Below, one piece after another: positions 2,119-22,161 of a stretch of DNA of 23,372 bases. Where the stretch lies: positions 1 to 23,372 of the IMG/VR virus record IMGVR_UViG_3300045947_000147; one strand, written 5' to 3'. The notes under the pieces are model-generated. The model was not told the origin of the DNA and searched no databases. It worked only from the letters and a program-made list of their open reading frames with translations. Position 1 is the first letter of the stretch; the number at the start of each line of letters is the position of its first letter. Made by a program: the position numbers and the translations under genes. The stretch is from a virus.

Positions 2119-2124
2119 GATGCA

Positions 2125-2646: not shown

Positions 2647-2670
2647 GCTCCTGACACGTTGCGGTGAATT

Positions 2671-6792: not shown

Positions 6793-6802
6793 CTCATCTG
6801 CC

Positions 6803-7102: not shown

Positions 7103-7118
7103 AGTGAGGAAATACCCG

Positions 7119-7963: not shown

Positions 7964-7964
7964 G
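7927..7964 (+). repeat. 38-bp gene-junction repeat, copy 2
   Basis: Exact copy of 7469-7506, 458 bp downstream, again spanning gene end, hairpin, ribosome binding site and ATGA. Recombination between copies would delete the three intervening small genes and still leave an in-frame gene end and a working start for the next gene. Confidence 0.85.
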
Positions 7965-8157: not shown

Positions 8158-8302
8158 GTGCCTGCGCTGTCAACGGGCCTTCGAGAGCTGGGGTGCGGCC
8201 AATCGGCTATGTGAGCGCTGTCGCCATAATGACGCGCAGACGGACCCAGGACCGGACGCGAAGCCGCTGCCGTACCTGTTCAAGGAGACGTGGGGGTGGT
8301 GA
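8138..8302 (+). CDS. Zinc-ribbon protein with non-standard start, tail duplicated downstream
   Basis: The frame encodes [10 protein letters not shown]...[11 protein letters not shown]: two CxxC knuckles separated by about 14 residues, a common small phage zinc-ribbon pattern. The frame is open from 7976, but an ATG there would overlap nearly all of DUF4031. No ATG or GTG lies close to the domain; CTG at 8138 gives a family-like N-terminus ([12 protein letters not shown], 54 aa) and TTG at 8063 is an alternative. A +1 frameshift from DUF4031 is also possible. The C-terminus [12 protein letters not shown] lies in a repeat copied after the methyltransferase. Coding is likely; the start is uncertain. 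Confidence 0.5.
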
Positions 8303-8310
8303 GGCTAGGG
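8267..8310 (+). repeat. 44-bp repeat at the upstream edge of the methyltransferase gene
   Basis: Matches 9552-9595 at 40 of 44 positions. It encodes LPYLFKE-WGW and stop of the upstream gene, carries AAGGAG, and includes the GTG-GTG start of the methyltransferase. Together with the second copy it brackets the methyltransferase gene. Confidence 0.8.
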
Positions 8311-9534
8311 CATTCCCGAACCTTTCAGGGTCATGTCATTGACACACTGCGCCAGTTACCGGAGCAATCCGTGCATTGCGTGGTCACGAGTCCGCCGTAC
8401 TGGGGGCTGAGAGACTACGGGATCGAGCCGCAGGTGTGGGGCGATGGCGCGAAGTTCTGTCTTGGCCTTGAACCAACTGTCGAGCTATACGTCGCGCACA
8501 TGGTTGAGGTGTTTCGGGAAGTGCGGCGAGTGCTACGGGATGACGGGACGTGTTGGGTAAACATGGGGGACTCGTATGCAGCGAACCGAACATACCAAGT
8601 CACAGATAACAAGCACGTCGATGTTGGGAATAACGGCGCGTCACAAGTACCAGCAGGGTTGAAACCAAAAGACCTGATTGGCATGCCATGGCGACTCGCC
8701 TTCGCCTTGCAGGAGGATGGCTGGTGGCTCAGGAGCGACATTATCTGGTCGAAGCCGAATCCGATGCCAGAAAGCGTCACTGATCGGCCGACGAAGGCTC
8801 ATGAGTACCTGTTTATGCTGACGAAGCGCGAGAAATACTTTTACGATGCCGAGGCGGTGCGGGAGAAGGCAGTCTATGGCGAGATGCGGTCTAAGTTTCG
8901 AGGCGACGGTGTCTATGTCTATGGTCGTAGCTTCGATAACTCTTCTGGTACGAAGACGAGCACGGCTGGCATGGAACGTCCATTATGCACGCATCGTAAC
9001 CTCCGCACCGTCTGGACGATTTCCACGCATCCATTCCCAGGAGCCCATTTTGCCACCTTTCCACCGGCACTGGTCGAGACATGCCTGAAGGCTGGCACCA
9101 GCGAGCAAGGGTGTTGCGTCAAGTGTGGGGCACCGTGGGTTCGGGAAACAAAAAAGACTGGCGAGAGACAGACGCGATGGAGTGCATCAAATAGCTTGGC
9201 TATTGTTGTTGGTGGAACCCACAGAGAGCGCACGACACAGAATGTCATGACGACAACACAGAATGTCATGACGACAACCGGCTGGCGCCAAACCTGCCGC
9301 TGCGACACCAGCGAAACCGTTCCCTGCACCGTTCTTGACCCGTTCTTTGGTTCTGGAACCACAGGAATTGTGGCGGACAGGCTGGGACGTGCGTGGATTG
9401 GCTGTGAACTTAAACCGGAGTACCTGGAGATTTTCAGGACGCGCATGCAGGCCGACATCGACAAACGTAACGCGAAACCCAAGCAGCAACGCCAGCCGAA
9501 GGTATTGGCAGGGCAACTAGAGCTGTTCTCATGA
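8296..9534 (+). CDS. DNA methyltransferase, beta-class N4/N6 type
   Basis: A 412-aa AdoMet-dependent DNA methyltransferase of the N6_N4_Mtase family. The catalytic motif IV TSPPYW (31-36) comes before the AdoMet motif I DPFFGSGTTG (348-357), the beta-class order. SPPYW occurs in N4-cytosine and some N6-adenine enzymes, so the target base is not settled. Between the halves is an insert with a CCVKCG knuckle and CRC (possible zinc site) and a 21-bp tandem duplication giving TTQNVMT twice. GTG 8296 is preferred: AAGGAG ends eight bases upstream; GTG 8290 is too close and 8299 also possible. No restriction enzyme is adjacent, so it is probably an orphan protecting phage DNA. The gene is flanked by 44-bp direct repeats. 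Confidence 0.9.
   Translation: MVRLGHSRTFQGHVIDTLRQLPEQSVHCVVTSPPYWGLRDYGIEPQVWGDGAKFCLGLEPTVELYVAHMVEVFREVRRVLRDDGTCWVNMGDSYAANRTYQVTDNKHVDVGNNGASQVPAGLKPKDLIGMPWRLAFALQEDGWWLRSDIIWSKPNPMPESVTDRPTKAHEYLFMLTKREKYFYDAEAVREKAVYGEMRSKFRGDGVYVYGRSFDNSSGTKTSTAGMERPLCTHRNLRTVWTISTHPFPGAHFATFPPALVETCLKAGTSEQGCCVKCGAPWVRETKKTGERQTRWSASNSLAIVVGGTHRERTTQNVMTTTQNVMTTTGWRQTCRCDTSETVPCTVLDPFFGSGTTGIVADRLGRAWIGCELKPEYLEIFRTRMQADIDKRNAKPKQQRQPKVLAGQLELFS
9235..9276 (+). repeat. Tandem 21-bp duplication inside the methyltransferase gene
   Basis: Two exact, adjacent 21-bp units (9235-9255 and 9256-9276). The length is a multiple of three, so the frame is kept and the protein repeats seven residues. It lies in the variable insert between the catalytic and AdoMet motifs, where it should be tolerated. 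Perfect identity suggests recent slippage. Confidence 0.85.
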
Positions 9535-9587
9535 AACCGAATAGTCACCCCCTGCCGTACCTGTTCAAGGAGGTGTGGGGGTGGTGA
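9531..9587 (+). CDS. 18-aa micro-ORF repeating a gene tail
   Basis: The methyltransferase stop overlaps an ATG (ATGA) that opens an 18-codon frame ending [12 protein letters not shown], the same C-terminus as the zinc-ribbon gene before the methyltransferase. It lies in the second 44-bp repeat. It may be translated by coupling, but more likely it is the remnant left by duplication or by insertion of the methyltransferase cassette. Confidence 0.3.
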   Translation: MKPNSHPLPYLFKEVWGW

Positions 9588-9595
9588 CGTTAGGG
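9552..9595 (+). repeat. 44-bp repeat at the downstream edge of the methyltransferase gene
   Basis: Second copy of 8267-8310 (40 of 44 identical), again with AAGGAG and a GTG-GTG start; the first codons after it (VVTLG) mirror the methyltransferase start (VVRLG). No methyltransferase follows, and a minus-strand zinc-ribbon gene ends inside the repeat at 9590. Confidence 0.8.
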
Positions 9596-9772
9596 GCGGG
9601 GTTTGCGGGGGTGAGGGCCAGGCTTCTGGCGCGGGCGATTCCAGGCGCGACTGGTGCACGAGGGGCAGCGCTTGGGGGCGCCACGCTTCCCGAGAAACCA
9701 TTGATAGCCGCACTTCAGGCACGTCACAAGCTCTCGATGGGCGTCTGGTGTCATGACGAAAAAATCTACCAT
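9590..9772 (-). CDS. Zinc-ribbon protein on the opposite strand
   Basis: A 60-aa protein with CLKCGYQWF, GAPKRCPSC and SRAWNRPR: two CxxC knuckles about 15 residues apart followed by a Trp-Asn-Arg-Pro-Arg tail, the recognisable layout of a widespread small bacterial zinc-ribbon family. The C-terminus is Pro/Arg/Lys-rich, suitable for nucleic acid contact. The frame is open to 9829; ATG 9772 is preferred, with AAGGGG close upstream, and ATG 9754 is an alternative. It is the only supported minus-strand gene in the whole early region, and the plus-strand frame opposite is its shadow. Its promoter would be in 9773-9852. Confidence 0.65.
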   Translation of the reverse strand: MVDFFVMTPDAHRELVTCLKCGYQWFLGKRGAPKRCPSCTSRAWNRPRQKPGPHPRKPRP

Positions 9773-9778
9773 AACCCC

Positions 9779-9807
9779 TTGACGAATGCAAGGCCTGTAG
9801 GTATATG
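9779..9807 (+). promoter_or_regulatory. Strong sigma70-like promoter candidate
   Basis: TTGACG (9779-9784, five of six) and TATATG (9802-9807, four of six) are exactly 17 bp apart. Transcription would start near 9814, about 40 nt before ATG 9853, which has its own AAGGGAG site. This would start a second early/middle transcript carrying the recombination and exported-protein genes, independent of the operon broken by the minus-strand gene. Confidence 0.55.
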
Positions 9808-9852
9808 TATGGTTGAAAGTTACGACCACAACAACTCAAGGGAGACACCACC

Positions 9853-10032
9853 ATGACCGACACGCAGCCCAGCACCACCATCGAAGAGATCTACCGCACC
9901 TTCGGATCAGCCCAGTCCGCCCGCACGCACTTTGTGTCACGCGGCTGTCAGTGCAGCGCCATTCAGCGCGACGGGCACCTGTATAGCTTTACGCGCACCG
10001 CCATGCAAGAGGAGCTGACCCATGCTCGATAG
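9853..10032 (+). CDS. Hypothetical 59-aa protein
   Basis: ATG 9853 is preceded by AAGGGAG and lies just downstream of a good promoter candidate. The sequence (IEEIYRTFGSAQSARTHFVSRGCQCSAIQRDGHLYSFTR) looks like a small alpha/beta protein, with a CQC pair and an aromatic C-terminal strand. No family recognised. It overlaps the next gene by 11 bases, implying translational coupling. First gene of a transcript that goes on to the RecT-like gene. Confidence 0.6.
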   Translation: MTDTQPSTTIEEIYRTFGSAQSARTHFVSRGCQCSAIQRDGHLYSFTRTAMQEELTHAR

Positions 10033-10162
10033 CATCTGCAGCATAGCCCAGGGCTATGTGGAATATTACCAGCTCTCCATGTCGTGGGACTATGCCCCAT
10101 ACGAATCAGGACTGGCCGCCTACTATGACGTGTTCTTCGCCCTGTGGAACGGCACACGCTAA
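10022..10162 (+). CDS. Hypothetical 46-aa Tyr-rich micro-protein
   Basis: GAGGAG lies about seven bases before ATG 10022, inside the end of the preceding gene. The product is unusually aromatic and acidic (QGYVEYYQLSMSWDYAP, then AAYYDVFFALWNGTR). It resembles small acidic proteins that phages use as host-protein inhibitors, but that is analogy only; no family is recognised. About 110 bp without a supported gene follow. Confidence 0.5.
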   Translation: MLDSICSIAQGYVEYYQLSMSWDYAPYESGLAAYYDVFFALWNGTR

Positions 10163-10270
10163 CCCCCAGGCGCCTGCACCCAGCGAACGGGCGGAACGTG
10201 TGGTACGCCCACTGCCGCGATCGGCTGAAATGGTGCGGCGCTCGGACCCAAGGCCGAGAAGGAGCCGACG

Positions 10271-10498
10271 ATGAAAACGCGACATGCACTCACCGCACAG
10301 CTCGCCAAAACCCAAGCCCTCATTGCCCTGGGGCAACGCTTACTCGCCAGCCTGGAGGCCATCGAAGAGAGCTGCTTTGTCCTCGCCGGGAGCCACCTCC
10401 ATCAGGCCCTGGGGAATACGCCGACATTCGAGGACACGTTGCAGCAGATGCAGGCGCTTAGGAGCGCCTACCGCGCGGCACGGGACCATGACGCCTAG
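10271..10498 (+). CDS. Hypothetical helical 75-aa protein
   Basis: AAGGAG ends six bases before ATG 10271. The protein is almost wholly helical, with a Leu/Ala heptad-like stretch (LTAQLAKTQALIALGQRLLASLEAIEES) suggesting a coiled-coil or helical hairpin. No family recognised. It lies directly upstream of the RecT-like gene, and an alternative longer start of that gene (ATG 10488) would overlap its end. Confidence 0.6.
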   Translation: MKTRHALTAQLAKTQALIALGQRLLASLEAIEESCFVLAGSHLHQALGNTPTFEDTLQQMQALRSAYRAARDHDA

Positions 10499-10565
10499 TC
10501 CTGCCGTCCAGCGGGCCATGGGACGGTTTTATGCACGGGTAGCTGCCTTGAAAGGACAAACAATC

Positions 10566-11633
10566 ATGACCGAATCAGTCGCCATTCCTATGGCGGGAAT
10601 CACACCAGAAGTACTGGAGAAAACGGTGATCGGTGGCGATCTCTCCGGGCTGAACGCTGCGCAGCGCACGGAATACTATGCGGCTGTCTGCCGCAGCCTG
10701 GGCCTGAATCCACTGACCAAGCCCTTTGAGTATCTGACCCTCAACGGTAAGCTCAGGCTCTACGCCCTACGGGATTGCGCGGACCAGCTCCGCAAGCTGC
10801 ATGGCATCAGCATCTATATTGCTAACCGAGAAAAGATGAATGACGTCTATGTGGTCACGGCCCGCGCCAGGGACCGCGAGGGACGCGAAGACGAGAGTAC
10901 CGGCGTGGTGCCGCTCAAGAAAGGAGGGAATGAGCTTACAGGCGAGGATCTCGCCAATGCGCTGATGAAGTGCGAAACCAAGGCTAAGCGCCGCGTCACC
11001 CTCTCCATCGCCGGACTAGGATGGCTGGATGAAACCGAGATGGACACCATTCCCGAGCGGTCGATGCAGGCAGGCCCTGCGGCCTTACCGCTGGCGTCCA
11101 ATGCAGTGAGCCCCGATGAGATCAACAGCCTTGTCACCCTGGCCACAAGCCTTGGGATTGACGCGGTCACCTTTGCGATCCATATGCGGCGGGTGATGGA
11201 CCTGCCTGAAGATGCACGCATTACCAAAAAGCTGCTACGGGAGTGTATGACGCGGGCGCAGTACGAGGCAGCATGGAACGAGTACAGTGCTCGCCTGGCA
11301 GCGGAAATCGAGCAGGATGTGCCACTGGGAGATGGCATCGAGACGCCAGAATCGTCCCAGGATGTACGATTGGACCCTGACCCCTCATCGGTAGACGCAC
11401 CAACCGGAGAAGCCGTCACCACAGGTCAACCAGATAGCAAGAATGGGCATGCCAATGGCTTGGCGTCGACAGAGCGCATCAAGGCGGTGATGACGTATGC
11501 CGAGCAGCACAACCTGGGCTCGCTGCTGAACGATGCCCTGAAGCGCTGGCCTGATGGCATCAGCACGCAGGCTTTAGAGCGGGTGTACGCCAACCTGCAG
11601 GACCGGGTCGAGGCGCAGGGGCAACAAGGATAA
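10566..11633 (+). CDS. Phage single-strand annealing protein (RecT/Red-beta-like)
   Basis: A 355-aa protein matching a conserved phage recombinase-type family: RTEYYAAVCRSLGLNPLTKPFEYL (34-57) parallels the YY-LCK-GLNP-TKEIYA signature of Red-beta/RecT annealing proteins; then LNGKLRLYALRDCADQLRK (59-77) and ANALMKCETKAKRRVTLSI (130-148) with the closing GLGWLDETE. It would coat and anneal single-stranded DNA, working with the VRR-NUC nuclease and RadD-like helicase. The last 180 residues are less conserved, polar and probably flexible. ATG 10566 is chosen because AAAGGA lies nine bases upstream and it fits the family N-terminus; ATG 10488 is an alternative. Many databases may label this family only as hypothetical. 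Confidence 0.7.
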   Translation: MTESVAIPMAGITPEVLEKTVIGGDLSGLNAAQRTEYYAAVCRSLGLNPLTKPFEYLTLNGKLRLYALRDCADQLRKLHGISIYIANREKMNDVYVVTARARDREGREDESTGVVPLKKGGNELTGEDLANALMKCETKAKRRVTLSIAGLGWLDETEMDTIPERSMQAGPAALPLASNAVSPDEINSLVTLATSLGIDAVTFAIHMRRVMDLPEDARITKKLLRECMTRAQYEAAWNEYSARLAAEIEQDVPLGDGIETPESSQDVRLDPDPSSVDAPTGEAVTTGQPDSKNGHANGLASTERIKAVMTYAEQHNLGSLLNDALKRWPDGISTQALERVYANLQDRVEAQGQQG

Positions 11634-11653
11634 GCCACGACGGGAGGAATGCC

Positions 11654-12355
11654 ATGTTTGAAGTCAAGCACCGCTGGTTAGGAACTATCTTGTTTGCCGT
11701 CGAGGCCGATTCGCTGCGGCGGGCGCTAGAGCTGGCCGTGCAGCAGAGGGCGGACCTCCGTGGGGCTGACCTCGGGGAGGCGAACCTCCGTGGGGCGGAC
11801 CTCCGTCAGGCGAACCTCGTGGAGGCGAACCTCGGGGAGGCGAACCTCCGTGGGGCGAACCTCCGTGGGGCGAACCTCCGTGGGGCGAACCTCGGTGAGG
11901 CGGACCTCCGTGGGGCGAACCTCGGGGGGGCGAACCTCTGGGAGGCGAACCTCGTGGAGGCGGACCTCCGTGAGGCGAACCTCCGTGGGGCGGACCTCCG
12001 TGAGGCGGACCTCGGTGGGGCGAACCTCGGGGGGGCGAACCTCGTGGAGGCGAACCTCGGGGAGGCGAACCTCGGGGAGGCGAAAAACGCCGAGACTGCC
12101 ATATTAGAAACCGGAGAGACACTCGCCACATTTCGAGACGCCGTTGTCCCTGAGCTCATCGCGGCGGGAGGGCATGAGGTGCCAGTCGCGGCCTGGACAT
12201 GCCATAGCTGGGAGAATTGCCCCATGGCGCATGCCTTTGGAGTGCATCAGATCGAGGATATTCCGCTGCTGTATCGGCCGCGTGTGGAGCAATTTATCCG
12301 GCTGTTTGATGCTGGCCTGATTCCGGCACCAGAAACCGAGGCACAACAGGGATAA
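11654..12355 (+). CDS. Pentapeptide-repeat protein with conserved C-terminal domain
   Basis: A 233-aa protein. A short N-terminal strand-rich segment is followed by 22 uninterrupted A(D/N)LxX repeats (33-142), which fold into a right-handed quadrilateral beta-helix; some such proteins mimic DNA (MfpA, Qnr), others have unknown roles. A separate C-terminal domain (about 165-225) has TCHSWENCPMAHAF and a segment ending LFDAGLIP, which I recognise loosely from other phage pentapeptide proteins. The ribosome binding site GGGAGGA lies about eight bases before ATG 11654. The repeat DNA keeps several other frames open on both strands. Gyrase or DNA-binding-protein antagonism is possible but unproved. 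Confidence 0.85.
   Translation: MFEVKHRWLGTILFAVEADSLRRALELAVQQRADLRGADLGEANLRGADLRQANLVEANLGEANLRGANLRGANLRGANLGEADLRGANLGGANLWEANLVEADLREANLRGADLREADLGGANLGGANLVEANLGEANLGEAKNAETAILETGETLATFRDAVVPELIAAGGHEVPVAAWTCHSWENCPMAHAFGVHQIEDIPLLYRPRVEQFIRLFDAGLIPAPETEAQQG
11750..12079 (+). repeat. 22 tandem 15-bp units (pentapeptide-repeat DNA)
   Basis: Each unit encodes A(D/N)LxX with the pattern GCGRACCTCNNNGNG. The third bases are nearly fixed: Leu is always CTC and Ala almost always GCG, so neighbouring units are far more alike in DNA than protein selection needs. This points to recent expansion and gene-conversion-type homogenisation. It is a coding repeat, not a CRISPR array: there are no spacers. 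Confidence 0.9.
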
Positions 12356-12382
12356 CCCATCCACACCAGACCGGAGGGTGTC

Positions 12383-12589
12383 ATGATTGTCCCAGTATCA
12401 GCTAAGGCTCTGCAAATCAAGCGCTTCTATCGCAATGGTGCACGGGTTGGCACAGTCCTGTATGACGCCTATGCGGAACCGTGGCGGATGATGCGGAATC
12501 CTGGCTGGCAACCAGTGCCGCCATGGTGGACGACTGGGCTGAAGGTGAGGACATATAGCATCCGACCTGGAGCCACGCTAAGGGATTAA
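12383..12589 (+). CDS. Hypothetical 68-aa basic protein
   Basis: CGGAGGG lies about six bases before ATG 12383. The protein is basic and Trp/Pro-rich (FYRNGARVGTVLYDAYAEPWR, then NPGWQPVPPWW) with likely beta strands. No family recognised, no signal peptide. About 170 bp with no firmly supported gene follow, holding only a 29-codon frame with a weak ribosome binding site. Confidence 0.5.
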   Translation: MIVPVSAKALQIKRFYRNGARVGTVLYDAYAEPWRMMRNPGWQPVPPWWTTGLKVRTYSIRPGATLRD

Positions 12590-12758
12590 CCCACACACGC
12601 CAGCCGCTGCCAGGGTGAGGGCCTGGCCCCAGAAGCGCGCCCCCGGGTGAGACCTGCGGGTGTTGATGGCGGCGTCATGGGAGTCGATGGCGCTGTGGCG
12701 GGCGAGCTACCCGTCCGGTCTGGCATGTCTTCTCAACGCACGCCTACGGAGGACCACA

Positions 12759-12980
12759 ATGTCTAAATGCCGCAGTTGTGGAGCCAGTATCATTTTCCTG
12801 ACAACAGATCAAGGGAAATACATCCCCGTCAATATTGATCCATCGTGGACCGACGGCCCATATGATGTGGGGCCTCGCTATGGTGCCAGATTTGAGCCAG
12901 ACAAAGGCCATGTCAGTCACTTTGCGACATGCAAAGATGCCGATATACCTGGAGGCGAAAGGACAAGGAATGAGTCATGA
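12759..12980 (+). CDS. Zinc-finger-like 73-aa phage protein
   Basis: GGAGG six bases before ATG 12759 sets the start; the frame extends further upstream without support. CRSCGASIIFLTT (4-16) and GKYIPVN (19-25) followed by HVSHFATC (51-58) form the C-x2-C ... H-x6-C layout of a small phage zinc protein family in which a single CxxCG knuckle begins the protein and SHFxTC ends it. Function is unknown; nucleic-acid binding is the usual guess. It ends in an ATGA overlap with the next gene. Confidence 0.65.
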   Translation: MSKCRSCGASIIFLTTDQGKYIPVNIDPSWTDGPYDVGPRYGARFEPDKGHVSHFATCKDADIPGGERTRNES

Positions 12981-13246
12981 CCATCTGTATGCCCCCCCAT
13001 CAGCCCTGTTGCACCCGCTGCGGCTTCGTGACCGCGCCGGCCTATTTCGAGGTGAGGACCCATACCCATGAGGGCCACATCGTCACCGAATACTACTGCT
13101 TCCGCCACACCGGCAAAGCCGAGGCCAGAAACCGAGGCGGGGTTCCTGACAGCAGTGATCGAGCTGGCGCGGCTGCACCACTGGAAGGTGTTCCACCAGC
13201 GCCCAGCCCGAACGGCGCATGGGTGGCGCACGGCAGTACAGGGTGA
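12977..13246 (+). CDS. Zinc-knuckle protein overlapping the nuclease gene
   Basis: Starts in an ATGA overlap with the previous gene. Residues 11-42 carry CCTRCG and EYYCFRHTGKAEAR, a plausible metal-binding domain. The following 45 residues (Gly/Pro/Ala-rich) are read in a different frame across the N-terminal third of the VRR-NUC gene, an overlap of about 180 bases, so the tail is probably unconstrained. Either two long-overlapping genes or a once shorter gene that lost its stop. Function unknown. Confidence 0.5.
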   Translation: MTICMPPHQPCCTRCGFVTAPAYFEVRTHTHEGHIVTEYYCFRHTGKAEARNRGGVPDSSDRAGAAAPLEGVPPAPSPNGAWVAHGSTG

Positions 13247-13448
13247 CGCTGGGCTGCCGGATCTGCTGCTGCTGCGTCCGCCACGGCTCATCATCGCCGA
13301 GCTGAAGTCGGCGCTGGGGCGTGTGACGCCAGATCAGGAGGCGTGGCTTCAAGCGTTTGCCCTCGTGCCAGATGTGCATGTCTATGTCTGGCGCCCCGCC
13401 GACTGGCCCGCCATCGAGGCGATCCTGTCCTCAAGGAGGGGACAATGA
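13068..13448 (+). CDS. VRR-NUC domain nuclease
   Basis: A 126-aa PD-(D/E)xK-type nuclease of the VRR-NUC family. Visible are the N-terminal helix AVIELARLHHWKVFHQRPA (29-47), GWRTAVQGDAGLPD (52-65, active-site Asp65), IIAELKS (75-81, Glu78 and Lys80), TPDQEAWLQAF (87-97) and the closing VYVWRPADW (105-113). Phage stand-alone VRR-NUC proteins are thought to act as structure-specific nucleases in recombination or replication. ATG 13068 is the only useful start before the domain, with GAGGTGAGG about ten bases upstream. It overlaps the zinc-knuckle gene by 179 bases and the lipoprotein gene by 4. Confidence 0.85.
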   Translation: MRATSSPNTTASATPAKPRPETEAGFLTAVIELARLHHWKVFHQRPARTAHGWRTAVQGDAGLPDLLLLRPPRLIIAELKSALGRVTPDQEAWLQAFALVPDVHVYVWRPADWPAIEAILSSRRGQ

Positions 13449-13795
13449 AACGAGCCTTGGCGCTGCTGCTGAGTTGTGGGCTTCTCGGCTGCGCCCTCAC
13501 ACCACGGGTTGACACGAGGCAGCCGGCCCCTCCGGTGCCCCCAATCGTGCTGACCTGTTTGGGGGCGATGGGATTTCCCCCTCTGTCGCAAGCCCGCGCT
13601 GATGTGACGGAGGCGCTGGAGCGCTGGGGGCATGCCAGCCTGGCGACGCTGGCGGTGGAGGCTCCCGAAGCCTATCACGTCTTCCGCGCCTTGCCCGATC
13701 ACACGCGGCAAGAGTTACTGGCCGATGCCTTTATTCTGTCCTGTGACGATATCCGCACGCAGCGGGCCACCACACTTCGTTTGCAGACCTATTAA
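13445..13795 (+). CDS. Predicted lipoprotein
   Basis: A 116-aa protein starting in an ATGA overlap with the nuclease stop and preceded by AAGGAGGGG. The N-terminus MKRALALLLSCGLLGCALTP is a lipoprotein signal: positive start, hydrophobic core, lipobox LLGC with the lipidated Cys at 16. A Pro-rich linker (about 25-33) and a helical domain with two Cys follow. It would be anchored in the inner or outer membrane. Possible roles are superinfection exclusion or a spanin-like outer-membrane part; the early-gene location favours the former. No family recognised. Confidence 0.7.
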   Translation: MKRALALLLSCGLLGCALTPRVDTRQPAPPVPPIVLTCLGAMGFPPLSQARADVTEALERWGHASLATLAVEAPEAYHVFRALPDHTRQELLADAFILSCDDIRTQRATTLRLQTY

Positions 13796-13807
13796 GGGGA
13801 GGTGTTC

Positions 13808-14044
13808 ATGTGGATAGGTTTTCTCATCGGGGTGGGGGTGACACTGTTCATCGTCGTGCTGGGGTATCTGGCTGCTGGCTTGATGCGAGATCACAACGAT
13901 CTGGCGATGGTCCCGCCAGGTCCGTGCCACGACCACGACGCGCATGAGCCCATAGAGATCGACCTCGACCGCGATTCGACAGACATCGTTGCCCGCAAGT
14001 TAGCTTTGATGCGATTGCGACTCATCGACACGAAAGGAGACTAG
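13808..14044 (+). CDS. Single-span membrane protein
   Basis: AAGGGGAGG lies five bases before ATG 13808. Residues about 2-26 (WIGFLIGVGVTLFIVVLGYL...) form one transmembrane helix; the remaining 50 residues are acidic and His-rich (CHDHDAHEPIEIDLDRD) with a basic helix at the end. By charge the tail is probably cytoplasmic, but topology is not certain. It sits between a lipoprotein and another exported protein, so the three may act together in the envelope. No family recognised. Confidence 0.65.
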   Translation: MWIGFLIGVGVTLFIVVLGYLAAGLMRDHNDLAMVPPGPCHDHDAHEPIEIDLDRDSTDIVARKLALMRLRLIDTKGD

Positions 14045-14045
14045 C

Positions 14046-14594
14046 ATGAAATCGCACGAACCGTTACCCGATGAGCGAGCACTCGCTATCGGCCTGGCCG
14101 TCGTTGGTCTGGTGCTGGTGGCGTGGTTGGCCCATGCCCACGCGCAAAGCGCCTTTGGCATCACGCCGCAGCAGCGGTATTGCCTGGTCGATAACTACGA
14201 CAATTTCTTTGAGCTGCGCATCTACCAGCCGGACAACGGGCAAATGATCATTTTCGGGCATGTGCACGACCTGACACTGCCGAAAAGCGACCCCTGCTAT
14301 ACCCAGGACTATACCGGGAGCGGGCGCCTGTACGATGCGACCACCAAAGGCGCCACACCCCTGCTCGCCAGCTTCACGATCGAGGTGAAAGATGCCAGGC
14401 CCGAGTGCCGTTCGCTTCTGGCGACTTTATCAGGCAGCATCGAAACGACCCCCATCGTCTACGGAGGCGATGTGGTCTTGACGACTAGAGCCCCGGTGAT
14501 GAGTCCGCTGGGAGAAGAGGTGTGGGTGACCTTCGAGGATCGCTTACCCGACTATCTGACGGAGTTATTGCCAAGTTGTAGTGTCCATCCGTAA
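14046..14594 (+). CDS. Exported or membrane-anchored hypothetical protein
   Basis: A 182-aa protein beginning one base after the previous stop, with AAAGGAG upstream. Residues 12-29 are hydrophobic and are followed by AHAHAQS, consistent with a signal-peptidase site or a signal anchor. The rest is mostly beta (RYCLVDNYDNFFELRIYQPDNGQMIIFGHVHDLTL...) with about four Cys that could form disulfides in the periplasm. No family recognised. Third member of a consecutive envelope-directed trio. Confidence 0.65.
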   Translation: MKSHEPLPDERALAIGLAVVGLVLVAWLAHAHAQSAFGITPQQRYCLVDNYDNFFELRIYQPDNGQMIIFGHVHDLTLPKSDPCYTQDYTGSGRLYDATTKGATPLLASFTIEVKDARPECRSLLATLSGSIETTPIVYGGDVVLTTRAPVMSPLGEEVWVTFEDRLPDYLTELLPSCSVHP

Positions 14595-14616
14595 CCGATC
14601 GAAAGGACAGAACGCC

Positions 14617-14883
14617 ATGGACGCCTGGCAGGACATCGACACCGCAAGCTTGTTCGAAGCCCTCTGTTGCTGGCTCGTGAAAGCCCCGTGCACCATCAGT
14701 GTCAAGGAAACACCGAATACGCTGCTCCTGGAGATCACCGTGCCCCCGTCCCACGTTGGGCAGCTCATCGGCAAGGGAGGCGAGACGATCCGGGCGCTGC
14801 GGCGGTTGAGCATGACCGGACGCACGAGAGAACAACAGATTGTCATCAACGTGATGGACGGGACATCAGGATCAAAGCTCTGA
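14617..14883 (+). CDS. KH-domain RNA-binding protein (KhpA-like)
   Basis: An 88-aa single-KH protein. The segment VPPSHVGQLIGKGGETIRALRRL (42-64) contains the GxxG loop GKGG (52-55) in the standard helix-loop-helix context, and the protein ends with the final beta strand (QIVINVMDG). Size and layout match bacterial KhpA/YlqC, a cytoplasmic RNA chaperone that partners with KhpB, which is not present here. AAAGGA lies nine bases before ATG 14617; the longer frame from 14581 overlaps the previous gene and lacks such a site. It is the last early gene, just before the terminator, and may act on phage or host mRNA. Confidence 0.8.
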   Translation: MDAWQDIDTASLFEALCCWLVKAPCTISVKETPNTLLLEITVPPSHVGQLIGKGGETIRALRRLSMTGRTREQQIVINVMDGTSGSKL

Positions 14884-14945
14884 CAGACAGGGGAAGTCAC
14901 GAAAGGAGGTGCCACCGACGAGCGTTAACTAAGAAGCATGGGAGA

Positions 14946-14981
14946 GGGCGCCTGGAGGAAAGCCGGGCGCCCTTGCTTTTT
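14946..14981 (+). terminator. Intrinsic terminator at the convergent boundary
   Basis: GGGCGCC (14946-14952) pairs with GGCGCCC (14966-14972) across a 13-base loop, followed by TTGC and TTTTT (14977-14981). It ends the rightward early transcript. On the other strand no T-run follows, so it should be mainly one-directional. The T-run includes the stop codon of the leftward receiver gene, leaving no spare sequence. Confidence 0.75.
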
Positions 14982-15672
14982 ATGGTTTCCACCCCATGCG
15001 CTGGGCCAGCCAGGCGACCCCCACCGCCGTCAAGATTGTGCCCACTGTGGTCACGATACCCGCCCACAAGCCCCACTTGCCTTTTTCCCGCTCCGTCTGT
15101 CGGGCGCTGAGCTGGGCCTGCAGCAAGTCAATTTTGGACTGCAACACCCCAATGTCCTCTTCGTCCTGCTTCCGCCGCGTCTCCGTGACCACGAGCTGTT
15201 CCCGCACCTGGCGCAGCTCGCGCACCTCGCGCTGCAGCTCGGTAATCGCCTGCGCGTTCTGGCTGAGGCTCAAGAGTTGATGTTGCTGGGCTTGATGCCG
15301 TGCCACGGCAAAGAGCATCGCCTCCCGCAAAAGCCGCTCCGCAATTTCCGGCTCGATCGCCGCATCCGGCTTAAAGACACACCCCACGGCCCCCTGTCGA
15401 ATCAGGCTAGCCGCATAGGCCGGATAATGCAAGGCGGTAAACACGAGCACCGCCGTCTGGGGACACACGTCCAGCACTTTGGTGAGCGCATCGCCGTTCG
15501 TCGTACCGGGCATACGGAGATCGGTGAGGATCAGATCATATTCCTGGGCGGCAGCCATCGTGAGCCCTGCCGTGAGATTGTCGGCATAGTCGAGCCTGGC
15601 GCCTTCAGGCATCGCCTGCTTGACGAGGAGGTGTGCGCTTTCTTCGTCGTCAATCAGGAGCACGAGGATCAC
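14980..15672 (-). CDS. CheY-like receiver domain fused to coiled coil and C-terminal membrane anchor
   Basis: A 230-aa protein, last gene of the leftward operon. Residues 1-120 are a response-regulator receiver with all key positions: acidic pair D8-D9 (LLIDDEES), phospho-acceptor D51 (LILTDLRMPG), T79 (VFTA) and K101 (VFKPD), so it could be phosphorylated. Residues about 125-195 form a charged coiled coil; about 200-222 (WGLWAGIVTTVGTILTAVGVAWL) is one transmembrane helix near the C-terminus, a layout like XhlA-type holin accessory proteins. No DNA-binding output domain exists. The frame opens at 15810, but GTG 15672 with AGGAGGTG just upstream gives the usual receiver start. No kinase gene is in the window. 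It follows holin-like and sigma-like genes. Confidence 0.8.
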   Translation of the reverse strand: MILVLLIDDEESAHLLVKQAMPEGARLDYADNLTAGLTMAAAQEYDLILTDLRMPGTTNGDALTKVLDVCPQTAVLVFTALHYPAYAASLIRQGAVGCVFKPDAAIEPEIAERLLREAMLFAVARHQAQQHQLLSLSQNAQAITELQREVRELRQVREQLVVTETRRKQDEEDIGVLQSKIDLLQAQLSARQTEREKGKWGLWAGIVTTVGTILTAVGVAWLAQRMGWKP

Positions 15673-15694
15673 GCACCTCCTCAGGCTTGTCTCG

Positions 15695-16180
15695 TCACCG
15701 GGCCACCATCTGGCGGTGCGTGGCCGTCCGGGCCGCCAGGCACCGTTTACAGCGAATCGAGACCCCGTGACTGGACTCATAGCGATACCACCAGCGCGGG
15801 GCATGGGCACAATGACGGCGCGTCATCGCCTCCTCATTCGCCGCCATCTCGAGCAGCCAATCCGGTAGCCGAGACAACGCTTGCCGGGCCATCGTGAGCC
15901 GGGCGGGATCATAGGGCCGTTGATGCCAGAGGGCATACAGCACTTCCGGGCTGCCCCGGCTGACCCGCTCCCGGTGGCGCGTATGCTGATGCGCCTGGCT
16001 GATCAGCGCGTCATGGTAGCCGGCGCGGGCCAGACATCGCGCCAGAAAACGGAAGCGCCGCGAACGATCGACGGGGGCTTGTCGCAGTGTGAGATACATC
16101 GCCTCCTGGGCAATATCCTCACCATAGACGCACCGCAGCGCCACATAGGCGTCGAGCAGATCCGTCGCCTCGGCGCTCAT
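15695..16180 (-). CDS. Sigma-factor-like protein with C-terminal zinc motif (tentative)
   Basis: A 161-aa protein. YGEDIAQEAMYLTL (about 19-32) followed by RFRFLARCLARAGYHDALI and an Arg-rich stretch resembles sigma70/ECF region 2, where an AEDLVQEVF segment is followed by a WLYRIARNLAIDxxR helix. LSRLPDWLLEMA (102-113) could be a remnant of region 4. The C-terminus has HCAHAP and IRCKRC, a possible zinc site not normal in sigma factors. It starts in an ATGA overlap with the FN3-like gene and ends 22 bases before the receiver gene. A plain DNA-binding or structural protein is the alternative; the assignment is by pattern only. Confidence 0.4.
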   Translation of the reverse strand: MSAEATDLLDAYVALRCVYGEDIAQEAMYLTLRQAPVDRSRRFRFLARCLARAGYHDALISQAHQHTRHRERVSRGSPEVLYALWHQRPYDPARLTMARQALSRLPDWLLEMAANEEAMTRRHCAHAPRWWYRYESSHGVSIRCKRCLAARTATHRQMVAR

Positions 16181-16751: not shown

Positions 16752-17117
16752 TTATGGTCCCCCATACTCTTCCGGTACCAGTTGCCGATATCCCGGCGCC
16801 TTCAGCCCACTCAGGGCGCGCTCATGGGCGTTGAAGCGATTCGCCATCTGGGCGCTTTCCTCGGCATGGGCGCGATAGTGCTGGCGCAGCTCATGGCCCA
16901 GCGCCTCCACACGCTGGGCCAGCGCCGTGGCCTGCTCCATGAACGGTTCGCGTCGAGTGAGAACCAGCTCCATGCGTGTCACGTCCAGGCGTAAATCGCG
17001 CACCTCACGGCGAAGATCCGAGATAATGACTCCCGTGGTCGCTTGGAGCATGATGGCCACGGCGCCCAGGATCCAATAGAGCAGCTTCGTGCTGCCATCG
17101 CCCTGCTGGGTGACCAT
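16752..17117 (-). CDS. N-terminally membrane-anchored coiled-coil protein (spanin- or XhlA-like)
   Basis: A 121-aa protein: one transmembrane helix (about 11-32, KLLYWILGAVAIMLQATTGVII) then a long charged coiled coil (33-105) and a short Pro/Tyr-rich end. This layout resembles inner-membrane spanins (Rz) or similar lysis accessories. The frame begins further up, but ATG 17117, four bases after the upstream stop, is preferred and would depend on translational coupling because no good ribosome binding site is seen. Position next to the holin-like gene supports a lysis role; a minor virion protein is the alternative. Confidence 0.5.
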   Translation of the reverse strand: MVTQQGDGSTKLLYWILGAVAIMLQATTGVIISDLRREVRDLRLDVTRMELVLTRREPFMEQATALAQRVEALGHELRQHYRAHAEESAQMANRFNAHERALSGLKAPGYRQLVPEEYGGP

Positions 17118-17121
17118 GGCA

Positions 17122-18531
17122 TTACTGTGCTGCCAGCTGGCCAGAGGTCTGCAAAAACCCCCGCAACGCCGCCGCACCCGTGGGCGTCAATAACGTGCCC
17201 GCATTCGCCAGCCCACGCACCACCGCACGCCCTGGCTCTGTCATGAGCACAAAGGGCAAGGCCGTCATCGTCGCGGTAATCGCCGCTGCGGTTTGCGGGT
17301 CAAGCCCCAACGCGAAGCCTGTCGCCCCCCCGCCAATACCTGCCACACCCCCCGAGCCATAGGATGCGCCAGGCGAGGCGCCCATACGTGGTAGCTGGGC
17401 GATCGCCGTCAAGGTCTCCCGAATATCGCCAAGTTCCGCCGCATTAAACGCGCCAGCAAAGAGGTCATCCTCCCGCATGGCCTTCTCGAAACGCCTCATA
17501 ATCGCGCCGGCGTCAATGCGTGGCGTGCCCTGGCCCTGCACGATGCGTTGCACGTTACCTTCGATCGCGCTGGTCAAATCCTTGAGCGCTTCTTGCTTGC
17601 GATAGGTCGCATTCGCGGCCTTGAGCGCCGCTGAGAGGGGGCCAGGGGTCGCTTCCACATCGCGCATAATGGCGCCGTCAATGATGCGCCGCGTTCCTTG
17701 ATCGAGTCCGCCCGCGGCGGTCATCTGTTGCCGAAGTTGCTTTTGCGCGAGCCAGACATCTTGGAAATCCGTGGTGGGGGCTCGCTGCGCCATGTCGAGC
17801 CACCCTTCTGCGGCATTGACAATCACCTCCGAGCGTTGCTGCGGTGCCAGGCGCCTTTGTTGGTCAAGCAGCTTCCCCGCGACCTTCGCCGTTTCGTTGA
17901 GCCGCACGGGCGGGTTCACCTGCGCCACCCGATCATACAGAATATCCGCGCTGGGGCGTGGCACCAACCGTGCGGCCAGGTCATCGGCCTGTTGCACGCC
18001 CATTTCCTGCAAGCCATAGCTCACACCGGGGAGCCGCTTCGCCACGGCGGCGATGCCATGCCCGAGCCCTTTCATCGCGGCCGGCCCCACGACAGAGGCA
18101 ATATCCCCCACACGGCCCGGCTCTTCCAGTCCTAGCGCCACATTGAGGCGCCTCGCCGCCACACTGCCCGCCGTCTCACCCAGCAGCGCCCCGCCCGGAA
18201 TAGGCGTCATGGTGCCCAGTGCGGTGCCAGCCATCGGCAGCCCCATGCCAATCGCCTGAGTTAACACCATGCGGCCACCGGGGTCGTCTGGCGTGGAGGG
18301 CACCCCTTCAAACTCAGGAGAGGCCATCTCCGGCCGCATGGGGAATGCGGGACGTTGTAACTCCTCCGCAATGAGGGCGCGGCGGCGGGCCTGTGCGGCG
18401 TCATACGTGCCCTTGGCGCGTTCTTTGGGGGTCAGAATGTGCGTCTGAATGGCCTCGCCAATTTGGTCATCGCTGAGGCTATCAGGAAACTCGACAATTC
18501 CATGGCCAGGGACTTCGACATATTTGGGCAT
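17122..18531 (-). CDS. Virion-internal / DNA-ejection-type protein
   Basis: A 469-aa protein. The N-terminus YVEVPGHGIVEFPDSLSDD with DQIGEAI is a motif shared by many large internal or ejection proteins of short-tailed phages. Two Gly/Ala-rich hydrophobic stretches (about 90-125 and 395-430) could enter membranes during DNA ejection, as for T7 gp15/gp16-type proteins; the middle is helical. ATG 18531 overlaps the upstream TAA (TAATG). Length is moderate for such proteins. The virion assignment follows from motif and context; the exact role is inferred. Confidence 0.6.
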   Translation of the reverse strand: MPKYVEVPGHGIVEFPDSLSDDQIGEAIQTHILTPKERAKGTYDAAQARRRALIAEELQRPAFPMRPEMASPEFEGVPSTPDDPGGRMVLTQAIGMGLPMAGTALGTMTPIPGGALLGETAGSVAARRLNVALGLEEPGRVGDIASVVGPAAMKGLGHGIAAVAKRLPGVSYGLQEMGVQQADDLAARLVPRPSADILYDRVAQVNPPVRLNETAKVAGKLLDQQRRLAPQQRSEVIVNAAEGWLDMAQRAPTTDFQDVWLAQKQLRQQMTAAGGLDQGTRRIIDGAIMRDVEATPGPLSAALKAANATYRKQEALKDLTSAIEGNVQRIVQGQGTPRIDAGAIMRRFEKAMREDDLFAGAFNAAELGDIRETLTAIAQLPRMGASPGASYGSGGVAGIGGGATGFALGLDPQTAAAITATMTALPFVLMTEPGRAVVRGLANAGTLLTPTGAAALRGFLQTSGQLAAQ

Positions 18532-19910
18532 TAGTCGATCGCCTCGATGCGGCCAGTCTCGGGGTTGTACCGATGCGTCGCGTTCGGGCGCTCTGGCGTG
18601 GACACGTCCGGCTGCGTAAAAGTCGGCACCTGGCCATATCCACCCGTCACGAGCGCTTCTTTTCGGCGTTTCATGGCGTTTTGCAGAATTTGTCGAGCGG
18701 TGCGAAGCTTTCCACGTAACTGCTCGGGTCGATCGGTCGCTTTCGGCGTCTCACGGGTTAAGCGTACAGACTCACTCGCGGTCACGGCTGCACCTGATCG
18801 TAACAGTGTAAGAATATTTTCGTACGAAGCCAACGCGGCCCGGAAATCGATTTCTTGCTCCGACATGCCGCCTGCTTTTTCCATGGCATAGGCTTGCATG
18901 CCACCACGGACGGGGCCAACAAACTCATCGTTGAGCTTTTGTTCAATGAAGTCGAGCGTATCTAGGCTGGACTGCATGGCGGCCAGCTCTTCGGTTTGCT
19001 GTGCTGGCGTGGCGCGCTGTCCCGCTTGGACCGCGCCCATTTGCTGCGCCCGTTCGAGCGATTCAGCACTCACCCGATCATTCACCTGCGCCCGTTGGGC
19101 TGTAGTCAGGCGGTTAAAGGGTTGATCGAACATTTCCGCAGCGTAGCGCTCGGCGGGATTGCTCGACTTCGACAATGATAACTCTTGCTGCCGCAGACCG
19201 AGGTTGGCACGCGACACCGCCAGGTTGCCTGCGGAGATGCCTTCCTGTGCCCGCTGGTGTCGTTCTGTCGCGGCTTGCTGCTGTTGCGAGAGTAGCGCAT
19301 TGAGGTGTTGATTCAATTTGGAGGTGTCTGCGCCGGCCGCCCCTGCCGCCTGAATCGCGGATTGCACGCTGAGAATCCGCTGCCCTACATCGCCTTCCAG
19401 TTGCACACGGCTCCAAGCCTCCTCGCCCGCTTTCTGCGCGGCCATCTTGCGCTTCTGCTCCGTCTGTTTCCCCAGTTCATCGAGATACTTCATCGCCTCT
19501 AAGGGATCTCTAAACATCCCGGCGAGTTGATCAGGGCTCATATTCCCGAGCAATTCCAGGTTATTCGAAAAGATATCCATGACTTGCTGGCGCTGCTCAT
19601 CGCCCATTTTTTGGAAGGTCGCAACTGTGTCAGGGCCAAAGATCGGTTGCCCATCCGCCGTGGTCGCACGCTGGGCATAGAGCCCAAAAAGGTGGTTGCG
19701 CGTGCCCCGGTCAGGAATGGCGGAAATCTTCATCATGGCTTCAATGCCGCCCAAAACTTCTTGACGCTCCTGGAGCTTGGCGATGCGTTCCTCGCGCTGC
19801 CGGGCGAGCTGGAGCTGCTCATCTTCCCGCCCCGAGCGATACGCCTGCAGGCCCAGTTGAATGCCCAGGGGGATACTGCCTTGTAATCCCGACCAGAGAC
19901 TTTGCGCCAT
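18531..19910 (-). CDS. Helical virion-internal-like protein
   Basis: A 459-aa protein, rich in Gln, Glu, Ala and Arg and predicted almost wholly helical with coiled-coil stretches (for example REDEQLQLARQREERIAKLQ, and 205-245). The C-terminus ATHRYNPETGRIEAID is a tail seen on phage internal virion proteins. AGGAG about eight bases before ATG 19910 supports the start. It sits between two other helical structural proteins in a coupled run, so all three are probably ejected or form an internal core. No enzymatic motif is visible. Confidence 0.6.
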   Translation of the reverse strand: MAQSLWSGLQGSIPLGIQLGLQAYRSGREDEQLQLARQREERIAKLQERQEVLGGIEAMMKISAIPDRGTRNHLFGLYAQRATTADGQPIFGPDTVATFQKMGDEQRQQVMDIFSNNLELLGNMSPDQLAGMFRDPLEAMKYLDELGKQTEQKRKMAAQKAGEEAWSRVQLEGDVGQRILSVQSAIQAAGAAGADTSKLNQHLNALLSQQQQAATERHQRAQEGISAGNLAVSRANLGLRQQELSLSKSSNPAERYAAEMFDQPFNRLTTAQRAQVNDRVSAESLERAQQMGAVQAGQRATPAQQTEELAAMQSSLDTLDFIEQKLNDEFVGPVRGGMQAYAMEKAGGMSEQEIDFRAALASYENILTLLRSGAAVTASESVRLTRETPKATDRPEQLRGKLRTARQILQNAMKRRKEALVTGGYGQVPTFTQPDVSTPERPNATHRYNPETGRIEAID

Positions 19911-19913
19911 CGC

Positions 19914-20702
19914 CTACGCTCCTGACGGGCCGAACAACCGCCGCCCAAAGGCGCCACCGGCCCCGCCAAAGAATGACCCGGCCCCGATGCCGAGGAGCTG
20001 GCCCAAAAAGCTCATAAACCCTGGTTGCTGCGCGTTGAACATATTGGCCTGAAACATCCCCTGCCGCTGCGCCCCATAGCCTTGCAGCGCCTGGGCCAAG
20101 CCTTGCAACGCTCCTGCCGTCTGGCCGCCCAAGGCGCTGGACGTGCCATAACTGCTCATCAGCCGCGCCATGAGGTTGCTTTGCTTCTGTTCGGCGGCCC
20201 CCGCCCGTGCCAGCCCCAGTTGTTCAGACAACGCCAGTTGTCCCGTGCGGGCTCCACTGCGCAGCTCTTCCGCCCGTGAGCGCTCGGTCGCCAGCGCCTG
20301 CATGCCCGGCGTCGACGTTTCATAGCCAGGGCCGAGCTGGGAGAGCAGGCGCTCCCGCACCGATTGCTCATTTGTGGCCAGATTGCGCTCAAGCGCGGGG
20401 TCCACCGGGAGGTTGCCGGCCAGGGCATCCTCGGAACGCTTGAGGTACTTCTCCTGTAAGCTGCGCTCCCGATCACTCAGCGCTTTGGCCTGGGGATCTT
20501 CCTCGAAGCCGATAATCTTGCCCTGATCGTCCTGAATGGGCTTGATGCCACTGGCGCGATAGAGATAGGGCGCCAGGAGATTCTGCAGCCGTGTCGATTC
20601 GGCGGCCAGCGTGCGGTACTCGCGCAGCATATCGAGCTGCATGCTTTGGAGTTCCCGCTCCTGTGACGACATTTCTGGATATTTGACCTTGGAGCCCCTC
20701 AT
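19914..20702 (-). CDS. Helical virion protein with Gly-rich C-terminus
   Basis: A 262-aa protein. Residues 10-185 are Gln/Glu/Arg-rich helices; the end (about 210-262) is Gln- then Gly-rich and partly hydrophobic (FLGQLLGIGAGSFFGGAGGAFG), as in short-tailed phage proteins that enter the envelope with the DNA. The start overlaps the upstream stop (TAATG). The role as an ejection or internal core component is inferred from composition and location. Confidence 0.55.
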   Translation of the reverse strand: MRGSKVKYPEMSSQERELQSMQLDMLREYRTLAAESTRLQNLLAPYLYRASGIKPIQDDQGKIIGFEEDPQAKALSDRERSLQEKYLKRSEDALAGNLPVDPALERNLATNEQSVRERLLSQLGPGYETSTPGMQALATERSRAEELRSGARTGQLALSEQLGLARAGAAEQKQSNLMARLMSSYGTSSALGGQTAGALQGLAQALQGYGAQRQGMFQANMFNAQQPGFMSFLGQLLGIGAGSFFGGAGGAFGRRLFGPSGA

Positions 20703-21109
20703 TAGACGGCCTCCTGGAGTTCACGCTTAAACCATAAGGCGCCCGCATGCTCGGTGTACGGTTCGAAGCCATAGCGCTGTACCATGTCCGCCCATGCCTT
20801 CCCTTCGGTTGCATCGATGCCAAACCGATAGGACCGCACCCCTGCCTCCCAGAGCACTCGTTCATAGGCCTCGATCAGCCGAATGGCAATAAAGATTGGC
20901 CGTGCCATCGAGATCACCAGTGGGCCGGCGATCACCGCCCCCTGTCCCGTCTGGGTGCTCAGCAGGCCCACGATCGCGTCATCGCGTATGGCCACTACGG
21001 TGGGGAAACTCAGCGGCTCATCGGCGTCCTGTGCCCTCAGAAACGCATGCGCGGCTCGGTAGTCGTGGGGCGTCATCACAAGCTGGTAGACGGTTCGGGC
21101 TGGGTACAC
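20702..21109 (-). CDS. GNAT-like acyltransferase domain protein
   Basis: A 135-aa protein with the order of a GNAT fold: N-terminal helix (HDYRAAHAFLRAQD), strands FPTVVAIRDDAIVGLLSTQ, a pair of helices including RPIFIAIRLIEAYERVLWEAG and the end ADMVQRYGFEPYTEHAGALWFKREL, where RYGFEP is the typical GNAT end motif. The AcCoA loop Q/RxxGxG/A is not clear, so activity is doubtful. GTG 21109 overlaps the upstream TAG and has GGAG eight bases before it; ATG 21076 is an alternative. Such proteins often sit among structural genes of short-tailed phages with no known job. Confidence 0.6.
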   Translation of the reverse strand: MYPARTVYQLVMTPHDYRAAHAFLRAQDADEPLSFPTVVAIRDDAIVGLLSTQTGQGAVIAGPLVISMARPIFIAIRLIEAYERVLWEAGVRSYRFGIDATEGKAWADMVQRYGFEPYTEHAGALWFKRELQEAV

Positions 21110-22161
21110 TATTCTGCTCCGTTCGGGACACCATATCCCATCACATCCAGGATCGCCCCGCCACTGGTCGCGGGGGCGGCCGACAGCTTGTATTCCACGA
21201 TACGATCCGAGGGCAGCGCCAATGTGACCCAGTTGACCGCTGAAGTCTGCACGCCATTGACCGCTGAGGGTGCGGCACACACGGCAATCCCGTTGGCCAC
21301 ATGCGCGGCGCCGTTAGGGCGCACAAACAAGGTAAACACACCCGTCGCGTTATGGGTCAGGAGTAGCCGCGTGCTCAGCAGCACCTTGAGCGCCTGGCTC
21401 GGCACCAGGGCCGAGAGATCGACATCCGTAAAGGTCGTTTGGACCCCATCCGTCAGCACGCGGTTGGCGCTGGCCGCGTCGGAGTCGAGCTCGTACATCA
21501 CCCACCCGTTGATGGTCCGAGTCCGCAGAAATTGCGTGCTGGCGTTCAGGCGTAACGTCGTCAGATAGGCATGATGGAGATAGCCACTTGGCATCACGGG
21601 CCCCAGGGGCGAATTGGGGCCAATGGGGCTGGCAATGAGGCCAGGCGTCGAACCGTTGGTGATGTGGTAGATATGAATGAAGCTATTGGCGGAAAAGGCA
21701 CTGGCCTGATCGCGCCCATTCAATACCGGCCCCGCTTGCGTGATATCCACGGTATAGACAACGTTGTTGATATCGACGATTCCGCCTGACGTGCCCGTGC
21801 CGGCCACGATCGACATGGCCGAGAGGTCGTACTTCGTGGTGGGGGTGGTGGCGTTGTTGACCCCTTGCACGCCCTTGACCGCCGACGTACTCCCGGCCAC
21901 CTGATACCAGTAGGTGAGGCCAAAGCGCTGGGCCAGCACATACCGGAGGCGTTCCAACTCCCCCGCCAGGTTCGTAGCGAGCGATTCACTGCCGACGCCA
22001 CCAGGATTGGTCTGCACGCGCATCTCGGTTACATTGGCGCTGTAGTCGTCGCTATCGGCGGGGATCTGGTGATCGATATGGTTCTGGTGATCGGCATTAT
22101 ATTTCGTGTGGGTGATAATTTCCCCGTCCGTGCGGGTCGTGATGCTGTAGGGATAGGGCAT
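21109..22161 (-). CDS. Tail-fibre / receptor-binding-like protein
   Basis: A 350-aa protein. The N-terminus ITTRTDGEIITHTKYNADHQNHIDH (around 7-31) is a linker-type start seen on phage tail-fibre proteins, followed by a helix-turn segment (RLRYVLAQRFGLTYWYQ) and then beta-rich sequence with many Ser, Thr, Asn and Gly, as in fibre shafts and knobs. No enzymatic or chaperone domain is recognised. ATG overlaps the upstream TAA (TAATG). It probably sits distal to the possible nozzle-like protein encoded just before it. Confidence 0.6.
   Translation of the reverse strand: MPYPYSITTRTDGEIITHTKYNADHQNHIDHQIPADSDDYSANVTEMRVQTNPGGVGSESLATNLAGELERLRYVLAQRFGLTYWYQVAGSTSAVKGVQGVNNATTPTTKYDLSAMSIVAGTGTSGGIVDINNVVYTVDITQAGPVLNGRDQASAFSANSFIHIYHITNGSTPGLIASPIGPNSPLGPVMPSGYLHHAYLTTLRLNASTQFLRTRTINGWVMYELDSDAASANRVLTDGVQTTFTDVDLSALVPSQALKVLLSTRLLLTHNATGVFTLFVRPNGAAHVANGIAVCAAPSAVNGVQTSAVNWVTLALPSDRIVEYKLSAAPATSGGAILDVMGYGVPNGAE

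Follow-up and report, generated by a model that had tools for sequence, protein, structure and literature searches.

KhpA and KhpB form an already known kind of protein, and the available part of PMC10117718 presents them as candidate general RNA-binding proteins in bacteria without Hfq and ProQ, e.g., in enterococci, where KhpA co-precipitates and co-sediments with KhpB. According to the same part of that source, KhpB (EloR, Jag) carries Jag-N and R3H domains. The accessible sections of PMC6403258 give the core order of KhpA as helix-strand-strand-helix-helix-strand, and describe for the Streptococcus pneumoniae protein that RNA binding is abolished by a GDDG loop and that I61 of helix 3 controls both the homodimers and the contact with EloR, the pairing of KhpA with KhpB using the same helix 3 residue as the KhpA homodimer. 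KH loops are, in the same sections, also able to bind ssDNA (PMC6403258). Chromosome-type khpA adjoins rpsP in B. velezensis and Monoglobus. A search of open-licence literature found, among the titles listed, neither a role for a phage-encoded KhpA nor a spread of KhpA in phages without KhpB.

The window, i.e., the whole stretch of DNA that was analysed (23,372 nucleotides), is a virus record, IMGVR_UViG_3300045947_000147. The features of the KH locus are given below, where "sister" stands for a related phage described further on.

14046 to 14594, plus strand: upstream gene, no family match, adjoins the KH gene in both phages (conserved in the sister)
14601 to 14607, plus strand: GAAAGGA, likely ribosome-binding site of the KH gene (read from the sequence)
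14617 to 14883, plus strand: KhpA-like single KH domain protein, 88 aa, GKGG at residues 52-55 (ORF, Pfam, sister alignment, AlphaFold2)
14770 to 14781, plus strand: codons of the GxxG loop (GKGG, residues 52-55; read from the sequence)
14944 to 14974, plus strand: 12-pair hairpin followed by GCTTTTT, likely intrinsic terminator 3' of the KH gene (scan for terminator-like sites; none listed at this place in the sister)
14980 to 15810, minus strand: converging gene, encodes a response-regulator receiver domain; identity to the sister counterpart 73% (neighbour; no known part in the function of the KH gene)

The KH frame is open and starts with ATG, which is also where the alignment with the sister protein begins; with an alternative GTG start at 14581 the protein would have 100 aa. 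The putative ribosome-binding site ends 9 nt before the ATG. The sequence-only reading had placed the gene last in an early operon, just before a terminator. It is indeed the last plus-strand gene, with a minus-strand gene converging on it, and the hairpin that follows has the longest stem among the 10 terminator-like sites found in a scan of positions 2000-16000, a number that is not in excess of shuffled sequence (mean 8.6, sd 3.0). However, in the sister phage only 3 nt separate the KH gene from the converging gene and no plus-strand terminator-like site is listed 3' of the KH gene, which means that conservation of the locus does not extend to the terminator. Nor is a single operon established, since the plus-strand block contains gaps of about 300 bp, and early timing would follow from the content of the neighbourhood, which includes genes for a helicase, a primase/helicase, a DNA methylase and a VRR nuclease (the latter barely over the cut-off).

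The primase/helicase is similar to proteins annotated as "virulence-associated protein E" in other phages, and one further plus-strand protein may be read as pentapeptide repeats. The TerL gene is on the minus strand. In the converging gene the receiver domain (PF00072, 53 bits) is followed, towards the C-terminus, by a long stretch reading as coiled coil and then by a hydrophobic segment; a receiver domain is unusual on a small phage. Direct repeats sit at gene ends (7469-7506 and 7927-7964, 38 bp, 100%; 8264-8310 and 9549-9595, 47 bp, 89%), and neighbouring ORFs therefore share short end pieces such as VREGQG.

Two contigs, IMGVR_UViG_3300045886_000064 and 3300049732_000190, overlap the window. 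One (G001) matches window positions 17032-23372 with its start (99.6%) and positions 1-3454 with its end (100%), with about 18.3 kb between, and the other (G002) is identical to the window over 1-12068. A single circularly permuted genome would produce such overlaps; its length would be about 42 kb by arithmetic on the unjoined contigs. No PF13083 domain was found at E <= 1 in 12 other records chosen by TerL; as two of these are the overlapping contigs, which end short of the KH gene, the rest of the window phage is without a second domain of this family. R3H was absent from all five records searched (the window, the two overlapping contigs, the sister and the phage Tunturi_5, see below).

With the upstream gene as a query, three further contigs were found, the third of which ends within that gene. 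The other two keep the KH gene in place, between counterparts of the window's upstream gene and its converging receiver-domain gene, and their KH protein is 60.5% identical to the focal one over 81 aa. Because their BLAST rows against the window are identical, they were counted as one sister phage. Over the 81 codons compared, pS is 0.74, with synonymous change near saturation, and pN is 0.28. The loop is GKKG in the sister and GKGG in the focal protein.

The focal protein matches Pfam PF13083 (KH_KhpA-B) with 39.3 bits (E 6e-10; curated cut-off 32.1), and the sister protein passes the same cut-off with 44.5 bits. KH_1 comes second on the same stretch of the focal protein (32.1 bits), also over its own cut-off, and no other Pfam domain exceeds its cut-off in either protein (88 aa and 81 aa, respectively); the focal protein has no Pfam match to Jag-N or R3H, and its match to BIRC6 was discarded as being below the cut-off. 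Thus, the phage protein shares with KhpB a KH domain of the same Pfam family and a predicted helix 3 contact, but has neither of the additional domains of the latter. Three NCBIfam equivalogs for small KH proteins, which we take to represent KhpA, gave 32.6 bits against a cut-off of 85 (NF002201), 29.3 against 106 (NF002761) and 27.4 against 106 (NF001748). Being below these cut-offs, the focal protein is called KhpA-like here and is not filed as an equivalog of bacterial KhpA. It has no match in PHROGs at E <= 5; the Tunturi_5 protein matched no PHROG either, and the best match of the sister protein has E 0.35.

Used singly against solved structures, the focal sequence finds eukaryotic KH domains best (IGF2BP1, E 2.8e-6; Nova-1), the solved KhpA having E 0.29, while a sequence profile of the viral set ranks KhpA (7xqc) first with E 2.8e-16. 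Single-sequence searches for close relatives of the focal protein returned none by tblastn of phages (E <= 1), in viral contigs or in genome contigs; a two-row alignment of the focal and sister proteins likewise matched no genome contigs and, among viral contigs, only those of the sister. These searches thus yielded neither a host nor a bacterial protein closely related to the focal one. In plasmids, tblastn with the focal protein gave five matches (E between 0.4 and 4), including one to an annotated jag gene. Judged by its sequence, the focal protein appears to be a divergent member of the KhpA/KhpB family.

The AlphaFold2 model, built from 37 rows (pLDDT 88.1, pTM 0.73), predicts the core order helix-strand-strand-helix-helix-strand of a type II KH domain, plus a short extra helix at either end. 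Foldseek found no match to this model in PDB or BFVD at E <= 0.001, and its PDB ranking has KH domains of ribosomal protein S3 on top. In VIA-align, the S3 domains and Thermus KhpB tie with Z near 9; Thermus KhpB (Z 8.9) superposes with an rmsd of 2.4 A over 73 residues, the lowest rmsd in 50 rows.

The dimer position was mapped via R59-T60-I61-x-Y63-S64 of the S. pneumoniae protein, as given in the accessible sections of PMC6403258, and RTIVYS of one viral row (L029). In 48 of the 50 rows of the alignment it is occupied by I, V or L, and in both the focal and sister proteins by Leu (Leu64 in the focal one); a helix 3 contact, whether in a homodimer or with KhpB, would be predicted from this residue type. 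G52 and G55 are invariant in the 50 rows, by construction for those rows that came from a motif pattern. The phage protein has in common with bacterial KhpA (PF13083; 7xqc) a small single KH domain, the GxxG loop, the type II core order and an aliphatic dimer residue. It differs in being phage-borne, without the adjoining rpsP and rimM seen in B. velezensis and Monoglobus, in lacking the Asp before the loop helix, and in having one residue fewer after helix 3. The Asp is present in 47 of the 50 rows, the focal pair having His or Gln instead, and the missing residue is peculiar to the focal pair; because of these two losses the partner or ligand of the pair may differ, perhaps being shifted relative to KhpA. 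The focal protein is neutral in charge (9 K/R, 9 D/E).

These results bear out what had been proposed from the sequence, namely, a single-domain KH protein of KhpA-like size with an intact GxxG loop (88 aa, GKGG at residues 52-55, KH_KhpA-B over the cut-off). That the phage encodes a KhpA-like KH protein, and does so at the end of the plus-strand block, is confirmed by the PF13083 match, the loop and the position of the gene. The sequence-only reading had also suggested competition with the host KhpA/KhpB complex or steering of RNA stability, effects that may or may not occur, and is supported in part. Loss of GxxG in homologues, named beforehand as evidence to the contrary, was not seen in the sister or in Tunturi_5, both of which were found without requiring the motif.

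Tunturi_5 gp147 (XOB77590.1, annotated as hypothetical) was reached by tblastn with the sister protein at E 2 and was taken up nevertheless, because its ORF reads as KhpA. Like the focal protein it is a phage-borne single KH domain protein (90 aa); the two are 22% identical in the alignment, and gp147 has kept the Asp. Tunturiibacter phage Tunturi_5 is a cultured jumbo myovirus with a genome of 308,711 bp, and the terms "KH domain" and "RNA-binding" do not occur in the available main text of the paper on the Tunturi phages (PMC11924767). It was the seventh of the seven phage-collection matches examined (of 13); the other six are unannotated fragments marked UNVERIFIED, with ORFs reading as KhpA or KhpB, and were left out of the count of phage genes.

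A scan with a degenerate DNA motif that describes the loop and helix, and that demands GxxG and the following Arg, gave 74 matching viral contigs, in each case within a KhpA-like ORF in frame; loop conservation across the 74 is by construction, as the pattern demands these residues. Two of the contigs are those of the sister phage. Like the focal protein, the products of the 72 others (all from IMG/VR) have one KhpA-type KH domain, but they belong to other groups of phages, in which the neighbours are either HSP20, HU and ThyX genes or those for a chaperonin and a terminase, and were found with a pattern that requires the loop. For domain counts, 50 less redundant records of the 74 were used. 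All 50 pass the PF13083 cut-off, 49 with a single match; the exception (G030, the contig of row L052) has two KH domains of the KhpA/KhpB type, at 44303-44515 (minus strand) and 59540-59752 (plus strand), and this phage could own a KH pair.

We considered the possibility that the viral khpA genes are flanks of bacterial rpsP operons. It was ruled out, S16 being absent from 50 of 50 and from 24 of 24 pattern-matched records in a search whose control was positive in 10 of 14. At E <= 0.001, terminases were detected in 16 of the 50 records by phrog_2, in 26 by PF05876 (24 over the cut-off) and in 15 by PF03237 (5 over the cut-off), the union of the three families comprising 35 records, with some weak matches (e.g., E 2.6e-4 in G027). 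The remaining 15 may be fragments or not phage, and the absence of KhpB likewise applies to records that may be fragments. Wide presence in phages as part of a known complex had been put forward as a point against the sequence-only reading: KhpA-like genes do occur in many viral contigs, but no known phage complex emerged, and 49 of the 50 records, which may be fragments, hold one KH domain of the KhpA/KhpB type.

Neighbour families were derived by all-against-all BLAST of the ORFs around viral khpA, each family being tested on one representative. An HSP20 protein is encoded near khpA in 17 of 50 contigs (L041, L051, L060, L091 and L102 among them), in several directly upstream, and a cpn60-type chaperonin is a neighbour in 9 other contigs of the 50. 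Other shared families are HU-like (15/50), ThyX-like (12/50), DNA methylase (9/50, its ParB-N part being under the cut-off) and GpA-type terminase (6/50). The proximity of a protein chaperone gene to that of a putative RNA chaperone, seen in two phage groups, offers a lead.

The tree comprises 63 rows (60 of KhpA type and three KhpB KH domains) over 85 columns, flagged as few by the program, and its bacterial rows are thin (three fragments of uncertain source and five plasmid-collection records). The KhpA-type rows are split from the three KhpB KH domains at 100/100. In this comparison with KhpA, suggested by the sequence-only reading, the focal pair falls with KhpA, as far as so short an alignment and so few bacterial rows allow; it is tight (100/99), on a long branch of 1.32, and stands weakly (91/76) next to one viral row (L037). 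Nineteen viral rows form a group with good support (100/99), and the branches next to it are two clostridial KhpA proteins. The remaining viral rows are scattered between bacterial and plasmid rows, and therefore fit more than one uptake. Among the viral rows is also a lone KhpA-type KH protein from a conjugative plasmid of Granulicella tundricola (NC_015058, row L109, 2453-2740).

Taken as a whole, these data make it somewhat probable that the phage protein belongs to the KhpA/KhpB KH family, on its KhpA side, and acts as an RNA-binding homodimer or together with the host KhpB. Support comes from the family match, the predicted fold, the intact loop, Leu64, conservation in place with pN well under pS, the split from KhpB in the tree, the match of the viral profile to 7xqc and the absence of KhpB from the phage records searched; what we infer is RNA binding, the timing, the effect and the identity of the dimer partner. 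Against this reading count the better single-sequence matches to eukaryotic KH domains, the KH_1 score over its cut-off, the low equivalog scores, the Foldseek ranking and the Z tie with S3 domains, the lost Asp and the residue missing after helix 3, and the neutral charge. One type II KH domain would grip short single-stranded RNA by its GxxG loop, and the protein would pair by helix 3, in a homodimer or in a heterodimer with host KhpB. If RNA binding of the KhpA type is assumed, the chances of a homodimer would be about even, and a partnership with host KhpB would be possible, if rather doubtful. Produced alongside replication and recombination genes, the dimer might influence how phage or host transcripts fold, how stable they are or how they are translated.

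A mainly host-directed protein, which replaces or poisons host KhpA in the KhpA/KhpB pair and thus redirects RNA handling or the control of cell elongation, seems unlikely to us. The A half without the B half in 49 of 50 phage records would suit it, as would the retention, as Leu64, of the helix 3 residue that serves KhpA-KhpB pairing in the accessible sections of PMC6403258. It presupposes, however, KhpB in a host, and the contig searches found no host; the changes at the Asp and after helix 3 could weaken pairing with KhpB, and a lone KH protein may equally form a homodimer. The sequence models, which rank KhpA/KhpB first, and the position on the KhpA side of the tree speak against a KH protein related to ssDNA or the ribosome, with a job in replication, recombination or translation and a mere resemblance to KhpA. 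We regard such a protein as still less likely, although the gene sits in a replication/recombination block, the model ties with ribosomal S3 KH domains, and binding of ssDNA is possible for KH loops (PMC6403258, same sections). Finally, the long branch (1.32) and the lost Asp could be those of a passenger, i.e., a captured khpA copy that is drifting and has little function; given that the sister, with a protein 60% identical, has the gene at the same position and in the same frame, that pN is well under pS and that the loop is retained, this is very improbable.

Beyond the KhpA-like RNA-binding protein of the window phage, several unrelated phage groups may have acquired a KhpA-type KH protein on its own, with no KhpB, and may keep it as a takeover factor, either as a phage-only RNA-binding homodimer or as a plug-in to host KhpB; we put this forward tentatively, as an idea with the chances rather against it. 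If true, it would make KhpA a recurrent phage-encoded RNA chaperone. The focal and Tunturi_5 proteins, which have no PHROG, the sister protein, whose best match there is so poor, and gp147, annotated as hypothetical, together mark a gap in phage annotation. Should lone KhpA genes recur across phages, they would offer natural variants for separating the jobs of the KhpA homodimer from those of the heterodimer, and would point to a phage step acting on RNA handling.
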